A stretch of DNA of 64,000 nucleotides from Flavobacteriaceae bacterium. GTDB taxonomy: Bacteria; Bacteroidota; Bacteroidia; Flavobacteriales; Flavobacteriaceae. This document shows positions 62,916 to 64,000 of this stretch, one piece after another. The notes beneath the pieces were generated by a model that was given only the letters and a program-made list of their open reading frames with translations, searched no databases and had not been told where the DNA came from. How positions within the stretch are numbered: the first letter of the stretch is position 1; each line of letters opens with the position of its first letter. A program made the translations under genes and the position numbers. The stretch lies in contig JAQWIL010000005.1 of the NCBI GenBank assembly GCA_029248885.1, positions 62,001 to 126,000 of the forward strand, in the 5' to 3' direction.

Positions 62916-63473
62916 ATGAAAATCAAATCCTATTTTTTACTTACGTTATTGCTAATGACGACTGTCGCATTTGGCAGTATTAAGCCGATTCCCATTACCG
63001 CTGCCACGATTGAGTGGAAGGCCTATAAAATTGCCTATGAGCGTTGGGGTACAATTGAACTGGAAAGTGGTGAGCTCGATTTTGAAGAAGGCACACTGAC
63101 AGGAGGAAACTTTGTGGTAGACATGACGAGCATACAAGTGACCAGCCTTGAGGGGAAAAAGAAAGCGAACTTGGAAAAACACCTTCGCTCTGCTGATTTC
63201 TTTGGCGTAGATCAATTTGCAAGTGCCACCATGGTGATCACTGCAGTCGAACAAACTGCTGATGGATATTCGGTAACTGGAGATTTTACAATCAAAGGGC
63301 AAACCCATCCCGTGATTTTTCCCATGACTGTTGATGGCAATACAGCTACAGCCAAAGTCAAAATCGATCGCTCCAAATACAATGTTCGATATGGTTCTGA
63401 CAGTTTTTTTGACAACCTCGGAGACCGTGTCATCTACAATGAGTTTGACCTCAATGTTACATTAACATTTTAA
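62916..63473 (+). CDS. YceI family periplasmic protein
   Basis: A 185-residue exported lipocalin-like protein. The signal peptide MKIKSYFLLTLLLMTTVAFGS is followed by ATIEWKAYKIAYERWGTIELESGELDFEEGTLTGGNFVVDMTSI and HLRSADFFGVDQFASATMVI, then GDFTIKGQTHPVIFPMTV and FDNLGDRVIYNEFDLNVTLTF. YceI proteins bind isoprenoid-like hydrophobic ligands; the ligand here is unknown. It is in one transcription unit with marR. Confidence 0.94.
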   Translation: MKIKSYFLLTLLLMTTVAFGSIKPIPITAATIEWKAYKIAYERWGTIELESGELDFEEGTLTGGNFVVDMTSIQVTSLEGKKKANLEKHLRSADFFGVDQFASATMVITAVEQTADGYSVTGDFTIKGQTHPVIFPMTVDGNTATAKVKIDRSKYNVRYGSDSFFDNLGDRVIYNEFDLNVTLTF

Positions 63474-63485
63474 AAATTGAAAGCT

Positions 63486-63569
63486 ATGAAAATCGATCGT
63501 CCAAAATGCGGATGTGGAAACACACAAAACCCCAACGGGTATTGTGATGGATCGCACAACAATAAATAA
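63486..63569 (+). CDS. 27-residue CDGSH iron-sulfur protein
   Basis: A very short gene 12 bases after yceI. The product ends CGCGNTQNPNGYCDGSHNNK. The ligand set of the CDGSH family is complete: Cys8, Cys10, Cys20 and His24, preceding the C-terminal NNK. One more residue than in the mitoNEET motif lies between the second and third Cys. Such proteins hold a 2Fe-2S cluster and act in redox or cluster transfer. It is probably the third gene of the marR operon. At 28 codons including the stop it would be skipped by most gene finders. Confidence 0.75.
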   Translation: MKIDRPKCGCGNTQNPNGYCDGSHNNK

Positions 63570-63582
63570 TTTTTCATTTGAG

Positions 63583-63613
63583 TTGTCTAGTTGATACTTG
63601 ATTTATATATTTG
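63583..63613 (+). promoter_or_regulatory. promoter of the trp operon
   Basis: TTG (63583-63585), 20 bases, TATATTTG (63606-63613), both consensus. The leader-peptide ATG follows after eight bases. Confidence 0.6.
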
Positions 63614-63621
63614 ACTCGTAA

Positions 63622-63669
63622 ATGAAAAATATCAATACTTGGTGGTCTGCTTGTTACGCACAGTCGTGA
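63622..63669 (+). CDS. trpL: trp operon leader peptide
   Basis: A 15-residue open frame, MKNINTWWSACYAQS, between a consensus promoter and a terminator hairpin in front of trpE. Codons 7 and 8 are tandem TGG (63640-63645). This is the arrangement of attenuation leader peptides, in which ribosome stalling at Trp codons under tryptophan shortage prevents the terminator from forming. Because the transcript start is so close, the leader-peptide mRNA would have almost no 5' untranslated region. Confidence 0.8.
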   Translation: MKNINTWWSACYAQS

Positions 63670-63692
63670 GACACACCTCGTATATACATACC

Positions 63693-63724
63693 AAAGGGCT
63701 TGTCATCACGACAGGCCTTTTTTT
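63693..63724 (+). terminator. trp attenuator
   Basis: A 12-bp stem (63693-63704 with 63710-63721, two G-U pairs, 5-base loop) runs into seven T residues (63718-63724), 13 bases before the trpE ATG. GCTTGT occurs both in the leader frame (63649-63654) and in the 5' arm, so the 3' arm has an alternative partner. A full antiterminator was not worked out. Confidence 0.8.
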
Positions 63725-63736
63725 ATTGTGAAACCT

Positions 63737-64000
63737 ATGAAGTACGCACTACAGACACATCATCGCAAATTGCTCGTAGATACCATGACGCCTGTCAATA
63801 TGTATTTGAAAATCAGAGACAATTTCCCAAATAGTATTCTTTTGGAAAGCTCGGATTATGGGGTCAACGACAATAGTGTGGCCTATATCTGTTTTAATCC
63901 CATTGCGGATATCAAGCTCCAAAATCAGATGTTGTCCATGCGCTATCCCGATGGGAAATCCAAACAAATCCAACTGACAGATAACGAACGTGTGGCCAAG
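63737..64000 (+). CDS. trpE: anthranilate synthase component I, N-terminal part (3' end outside window)
   Basis: The first 88 codons of TrpE, which with TrpG converts chorismate to anthranilate. The translation reads MKYALQTHHRKLLVDTMTPVNMYLKIRD, then SILLESSDYG and VAYICFNPIADI. The LLESS motif, with its serine, is the tryptophan feedback-inhibition site of the family, and TPVNMYLKIRD also belongs to that pocket. The gene continues past the window end. Position after a Trp leader peptide and attenuator agrees with the identity. It is the first structural gene of a probable trp operon. Confidence 0.9.
   Translation, partial: MKYALQTHHRKLLVDTMTPVNMYLKIRDNFPNSILLESSDYGVNDNSVAYICFNPIADIKLQNQMLSMRYPDGKSKQIQLTDNERVAK

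Follow-up and report, generated by a model that had tools for sequence, protein, structure and literature searches.

The region upstream of trpE, at the end of the window (the whole 64,000-nucleotide stretch of flavobacterial DNA analyzed here, on whose forward strand the trp features described below lie), very probably encodes a ribosome-mediated trp attenuator in which an almost leaderless RNA carries the leader ORF. The initial annotation had described a trp attenuation leader on an almost leaderless RNA, and that reading is retained, although the class of element had already been described as RF01692: Bacteroid-trp RNA is catalogued in Bacteroidetes, and the class is therefore not new. What is new here is the antiterminator strand, together with signs of a near-leaderless layout in about half of the relatives.

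In the proposed mechanism, RNA polymerase would start about 3-4 nt before the leader AUG, and the ribosome, with no Shine-Dalgarno site to bind, would load at the 5' end of the RNA. When Trp-tRNA is scarce, the ribosome would stall on UGG UGG, whereupon a protector hairpin would be opened and GUCGUGAGACA freed to pair with the upper 5' arm of the terminator, its loop, and the first bases of its 3' arm as these emerge; the terminator would then be unable to zip and trpE would be transcribed, the fold having been obtained in silico and its in vivo effect being proposed. When tryptophan is ample, the ribosome would reach the UGA inside the antiterminator strand and mask that strand, and the terminator would form. 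On an untranslated leader, folding in silico suggests that the terminator would win once its 3' arm is out, with help from the protector hairpin, a step that is least clear in the window's genus.

The trp leader and its conservation

The window closes with the trp operon, in which trpE, G, D, C, F, B, and A run in one direction (names from translations); the genome assembly comprises 1.51 Mb in 38 contigs and is 78% complete. The first gene of trpEGDCFBA, trpE (63737 to 64000, continuing beyond the window end; named from its translation), begins with the ATG at 63737, and a GTG in the same frame lies at 63728. Ahead of it, a -33 TTG element (63583 to 63585) begins 30 nt before the G of the -7 box TATATTTG (63606 to 63613, read directly), which has the Bacteroidota form TAnnTTTG. 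The leader ORF MKNINTWWSACYAQS (15 codons, 63622 to 63669; ATG 63622, TGA 63669) carries tandem Trp codons, TGG TGG, at 63640 to 63645, and is followed by an intrinsic terminator (63693 to 63721, -16.5 kcal/mol) with a 12-bp stem and a 5-nt loop (arm 63693-63704, loop 63705-63709, arm 63710-63721) and by a T7 tract (63718 to 63724). The promoter, the 15-residue frame with its TGG pair, the 12-bp hairpin with T7, and the trpE ATG had all been pointed out in the initial annotation, and all were found where it had placed them; its gap of eight bases between the -7 element and the leader ATG likewise proved to be exactly 8 nt by direct reading.

Upstream of the leader, a gene at 62916-63473 ends in FFDNLGD..IY.EFDL and is presumably YceI-like, and this gene is separated from the leader by a small CDGSH-motif ORF (about 63486-63569). 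As judged by eye, a similarly ending ORF stands ahead of the trp leader in relatives from other genera (G138, G211, G091, G072, and G251).

Conservation was surveyed with trpE as the anchor, to keep the leader from influencing which genomes were chosen, in a sample of 153 Flavobacteriaceae genomes made up of 100 places and 25 loci among the best-listed TrpE matches and 28 loci from another search. TrpE was matched in 277 of 299 family genomes, and because the sample was taken best-first from these matches, divergent TrpE is under-represented. A leader ORF with in-frame TGGTGG was present in 151 of the 153 sampled genomes, the two misses being G117, whose contig ends there, and G004, which reads TGG TCG; homologous regions lacking conserved TGG codons, which had been named beforehand as the finding that would count against a trp attenuation leader, were not the pattern seen. 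By the rule used, with terminators searched only 3' of the leader, all 151 leaders were followed by a terminator, whose stem pairs were formed in 98.3% of cells in a 148-sequence alignment that leaves out the near-identical same-genus leaders G005, G006, and G009. The corrected leaders hold three Trp codons in 135 cases and two in 16; in four genomes (G138, G211, G091, and G129) a chance upstream TGGTGG was set aside and the true leader entered the counts, and loci L032-L061 stand outside the counts.

The same-genus G004 holds a decayed leader (L008 1300-1500) with TGG TCG and with TATATTTA in place of TATATTTG; the copy keeps an intact terminator and the TCGTGA core described below. Upstream of trpE in three Pedobacter loci (L115, L117, and L118) there is a non-tandem W-L-W leader, with 6 nt between box and ATG and a GC-rich terminator partly complementary to the leader end. 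In the comparison that yielded these loci, L114, which has a partial trpE, was skipped.

A chance TGG TGG frame standing before a constitutive terminator, with no regulation, would be in keeping with the loss of the second TGG and of the box G in G004, but it is contradicted by the conservation of the tandem codons across the sampled genomes. A model, R1, made from 55 leaders of other genera with the window's genus excluded, also argues against chance, as it found the window leader (64.3 bits, E 6.7e-10) as its sole match at E ≤0.001 in the window's own genome. Coincidence of this kind is extremely improbable.

Predicted antiterminator pairing and folding of the growing transcript

An antiterminator was not obvious by eye in the initial annotation, and a conserved one emerged by computation. 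Its 5' strand, GUCGUGAGACA (63663-63673), overlaps the leader stop codon and pairs with UGUC-a-UCACGAC (63701-63712) in a helix of 11 bp with one bulged A, at -12.9 kcal/mol vs. -16.5 kcal/mol for the terminator; the 3' strand covers part of the terminator 5' arm, the loop, and the beginning of the 3' arm. The TCGTGA core of the 5' strand is exact in 143 of 151 corrected leaders. Since it does not stand in one constant frame with the Trp codons (frames 0, 1, and 2 in 106, 33, and 4 of the 143), the core is kept as RNA and not as peptide; its UGA serves as the leader stop in 94 of these leaders, with the stop further on in 33 and earlier in 16.

Across the 148 aligned leaders, the eight antiterminator pairs form in 85.1% of cells, the end pairs being formed in 49 of 148 and 77 of 142. 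The check by folding and covariation that had been suggested for flavobacterial trpE upstream regions yielded two-sided compensated variants within the family (UCGCGA:UCGCGA and CGUAAG:CUUACG), although two-sided change occurred at only three of the eight pairs; with so little variation in the core, covariation within the family is thin. None of 500 shuffles reached the observed pairing and covariation values, in a control that ignores kinship, and RNAalifold on the full alignment predicted the terminator alone. Pairs with the first two bases of the terminator 3' arm, which exclude the top pairs of the terminator, form in 147 and 144 of 148 leaders. The 11 bp of the window are not general, 6-8 bp being usual in the family. 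The helix extends at one end or the other (column 49 without G42 in 67 of 148, the reverse in 39, both ends in 10, and neither in 32; A2 columns 42-49 and 117-124), and it appears to hold a constant length.

In the minimum-energy fold of the window leader, a protector hairpin (1:2, 63635 to 63683) pairs the Trp-codon region with the CACC/GUAU region 3' of it. The corresponding hairpin pairs at least four of the six motif bases with upstream codons in 140 of 148 leaders; beyond the motif, 4 or more nt of the Trp codons are paired in 131 of 148, and the mean fold is -16.2 kcal/mol vs. -10.8 kcal/mol for shuffles; in the window, two of the six motif bases and 5 Trp-codon nt are paired.

Switching was simulated by folding growing transcripts, the ribosome being assumed to cover 16 nt counted from the A-site codon. 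With the ribosome stalled at Trp, the antiterminator formed in 151 of 151 leaders at 3, 4, and 5 nt of exposed 3' arm, and with the ribosome at the stop codon, the terminator formed in 124, 146, and 150 of 151 at the same three lengths, the antiterminator never being preferred. Untranslated RNA gave the antiterminator in 50, 44, and 31 of 151 (3, 4, and 5 nt exposed) and the terminator in 150 of 151 once 8 nt of the 3' arm were out; a control with shuffled spacers gave the antiterminator in 59, 43, and 37 of 151 (3, 4, and 5 nt). In the window's genus, untranslated RNA favored the antiterminator in eight of nine leaders at 3-6 nt exposed, and in the window itself it did so until 63716 was out, with the terminator from 63718 on.

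Equilibrium folding gave a different picture. With the full terminator present, the stalled state folded into the terminator in 142-144 of 151 leaders and into the antiterminator in 7-9, and full-length equilibrium folding reproduced the complete switch logic in 11 of 151. The stalled state of the window leader keeps the antiterminator fold after the terminator has been made in full; when the first Trp codon occupies the A site, seven of nine same-genus leaders do likewise with the full terminator present, and these are all seven of the 151 that do so. As modeled, the switch is thus kinetic in most genera and in the window's genus is favored at equilibrium too, kinetic control being needed outside that genus because the equilibrium fold gives the terminator under stall. 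A mutually exclusive antiterminator freed by a stalled ribosome is accordingly predicted in silico, with equilibrium folding in most other genera speaking against it.

Outside the family, 31 loci were considered, of which nine were without a leader by the rule and 22 had one, some of them doubtful (e.g., L283); five same-family loci of 30 fetched were set aside. Under stall and with 5 nt of 3' arm exposed, the antiterminator formed in 17 of 22 leaders vs. 49 of 220 shuffles, and with 3 nt exposed it did so in 18 of 22 vs. 115 of 220; L281, L282, and L288 gave no antiterminator at 3 or 5 nt. Both strands are replaced in some of these loci by other complements, such as GAGAAGC:GCUUCUC and GAACAGC:GCUGUUC. 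These modeled out-of-family results are supportive, not decisive.

The same complementarity could be read otherwise, with UCGUGA and UCACGA either making a pseudoknot that involves the terminator loop or serving as an inverted site for a protein, and with tryptophan being sensed by other means. Such a reading is quite unlikely. It would account for a core more nearly invariant than a helix needs, for the victory of the terminator at equilibrium in most genera, and for the four or five bases that pair with the loop itself. Three observations weigh against it: the two pairs with the 3' arm, formed almost throughout the alignment, reach beyond the loop and exclude the terminator top; both strands have been swapped for other complements in several out-of-family loci, albeit with mixed controls; and the strand is mostly buried, in 140 of 148 leaders, by a hairpin that also involves codons after Trp. 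A ribosome-released antiterminator remains the preferred reading.

Promoter geometry and the predicted near-leaderless start

Published maps, in the portions available, place TAnnTTTG at -12 to -5 (PMC9723704) and the transcription start 4-5 nt after the box (PMC6847099). On this box geometry, the trp RNA of the window is predicted to begin at 63618 or 63619, which leaves 3-4 nt ahead of the AUG; transcripts reading through from the gene upstream would carry a longer leader. Among 149 relatives with an assigned box, the form is TAnnTTTG in 147 and TAnnTTTA in 2, and the -33 TTG lies 29-30 nt ahead of the box G in 128. Of the same-genus loci, nine of ten keep the box intact, the exception being L008 with its TATATTTA.

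The gap between the box and the start codon in these 149 leaders is 4-5 nt in 43, 6-9 nt in 33, 10-22 nt in 68, and more in 5, and thus at most 9 nt in 76. This count had a lower limit of 3 and required 140 nt before the leader, so G243 and G291 (34 and 5 nt in a separate count) were left out. No gap below 4 nt was seen among 139 leaders counted without a lower limit, and among the corrected leaders no exact -7 box ended within 3 nt of the chosen start; a lower bound of this kind is what one would see were the transcript required to include the AUG. In the 139 leaders assigned earlier, which were used for comparison with ordinary genes, a gap of at most 9 nt occurred in 69, as against 10 of 87 ordinary genes taken from 20 other genera (Fisher P 2e-9, a value that is too small because spacer class follows clades). 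The short spacer is nevertheless not the product of one event, since well-supported branches force at least four changes of spacer class; a TrpE tree of 53 tips (52 labeled) shows five changes vs. about 16.5 for shuffled labels. Where the trp spacer is short, the genome as a whole shows no excess of short-spacer genes (5/49 vs. 5/38). Outside the family, the gap is at most 9 nt in 13 of the 17 leaders with a box, and five of these 13 form one Pedobacter-like group. The promoter sequences thus support a near-leaderless layout that is common in the family and also present outside it.

An ordinary leadered attenuator, in which the switch is real and the relevant RNA starts further upstream, through read-through of the CDGSH-type gene or from a weaker promoter, would dispense with near-leaderless initiation. 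Leaders with gaps of at least 10 nt do exist in the family (73/149), most Bacteroidetes mRNAs are leadered according to the available parts of the published maps (PMC9723704; PMC6847099), and nothing resembling a terminator turned up in a pattern scan of the interval from the upstream gene to the leader. Set against these points are the retention of the box throughout all but one of the same-genus loci, its fixed spacing from the -33 TTG, the clustering of gaps at 4-5 nt with none shorter, and the many genes of the same genome in which the box stands 4 or 5 nt before an ATG. A leadered form is therefore unlikely, though it keeps more weight than the other alternatives considered here, and an almost leaderless RNA is preferred.

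The last of these arguments draws on a sample of the window's own genome (the window, L002, and L259-L278). There, 71 ORFs have a box within 44 nt, with a gap of 3-5 nt in 24 and of at most 9 nt in 31, compared with 6 and 10 of 87 in other genera. A box followed after k nucleotides by an ATG and 60 open codons was found 19 times at k=4 and 13 times at k=5 in this genome (468 kb, 494 boxes) and 7 and 6 times, respectively, in 20 other genera of the family (800 kb, 1020 boxes); three altered boxes gave no peak at k=4 or 5 in the own genome. As claimed for the host in the initial annotation, Shine-Dalgarno sites are lacking: AGGA, GGAG, or GAGG occurs at -20 to -4 in 11 of 309 sampled own-genome ORFs, where shuffles lead one to expect 20.1. 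The accessible portions of published maps report 5.5% leaderless transcripts in F. psychrophilum (PMC9723704), 3.7% with leaders under 10 nt in B. thetaiotaomicron, and, among predicted leaders in F. johnsoniae, 87% above 10 nt and 13% at 10 nt or less (PMC6847099). Relative to these shares, the own genome seems to hold an unusually large class of apparently leaderless genes, and the short 5' end predicted for the trp leader would agree with many of them. This class could be the signature of a streamlined marine lineage dependent on leaderless translation and is perhaps a more interesting lead than the trp leader itself.

Bacteroid-trp RNA and other known systems

The RF01692 model aligns over its full length (1-131) to 63599-63704 with 32.9 bits (E 0.036 in a 301-base search), short of the gathering score of 49 bits, and in the own genome, searched under strict filters, nothing matched at E 0.001; the model matches in 207 of 299 same-family genomes, 183 of which exceed the cut-off. 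Since R1 finds the window leader, and since several genomes in the R1 alignment (G063, G067, and G142 among them) score above the RF01692 cut-off, the window leader is, as judged by these sequence models, a divergent homologue of Bacteroid-trp outside Rfam's curated threshold. The two share the position before trpE, a Trp-rich leader, and a hairpin across the Trp codons, and the Rfam model terminates in GGCUUGUC, part of the 5' arm of the window terminator; they differ in that leaders of the window's genus are shorter, with WW and not WWW, and the Rfam consensus structure contains the Trp-codon hairpin only, without terminator or antiterminator. No T-box or riboswitch family of Rfam reached its gathering score in the window, and none was among the three Rfam matches at E up to 10 over 63500-63800; the PrrF and suhB matches are terminator look-alikes far below their cut-offs. 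Three candidates emerged when the sampled own genome was scanned for further amino-acid leaders, and of these only the trp leader was convincing.

Bacteroid-trp was listed as a cis-regulatory candidate in Bacteroidetes by Weinberg et al. (2010; PMC2864571), in whose main text, as far as available, no mechanism for it was found. The accessible part of a 2019 paper noted it before the trp operon of Flavobacterium psychrophilum, and that of a 2021 transcriptome paper reported strong clues for leader-peptide attenuation before amino-acid operons (PMC9723704). In the literature on Bacteroidota searched, no description of this antiterminator or of near-leaderless trp leaders was found, a weak absence given that subscription papers and supplements fell mostly outside its scope. 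Older computational surveys of attenuation by the Lyubetsky group may cover Bacteroidetes. With the present analysis, an Rfam family that was catalogued but poor in mechanistic detail gains an antiterminator that can be tested, and the relatives offer a natural experiment on the need for a 5' leader, the same switch seemingly operating with predicted leaders of 0 to about 18 nt and a few longer. It is possible, although we incline slightly against it, that trp attenuation in Bacteroidota commonly relies on leaderless loading and a loop-seeking, kinetic antiterminator and not on a more stable alternative fold; the ribosome would then bind the AUG as it leaves the polymerase and be in step from the first codons, and the antiterminator would have to win before the terminator 3' arm emerges.

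The E. coli trp attenuator follows a four-segment logic, with tandem Trp codons and a stop codon in the 1:2 region, and its trpL has a Shine-Dalgarno site and a 5' leader. It differs from the window leader in that the antiterminator strand of the latter is predicted to target the terminator loop and both arm tips, not the 5' arm alone. Leaderless short-ORF attenuators are also reportedly known from mycobacteria (Canestrari, 2020), where polycysteine sORFs share the leaderless arrangement and differ in amino acid and phylum. A similar layout is that of trpL of Sinorhizobium meliloti (rnTrpL/peTrpL), whose leader-ORF AUG stands, according to the available portions of the reports, at the RNA 5' end and which attenuates transcription of trpE (PMC7298713; PMC10117765). 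The mechanistic variant envisaged in the initial annotation is accordingly supported, as an almost leaderless RNA, by promoter geometry, but with S. meliloti trpL as a precedent it is not new as such. The two systems belong to different phyla and differ in sequence, the window's host phylum being without Shine-Dalgarno sites, and, where the AUG of S. meliloti trpL is terminal, a 5' leader of 3-4 nt is predicted for the window and one of 0-1 nt for 43 of 149 relatives.
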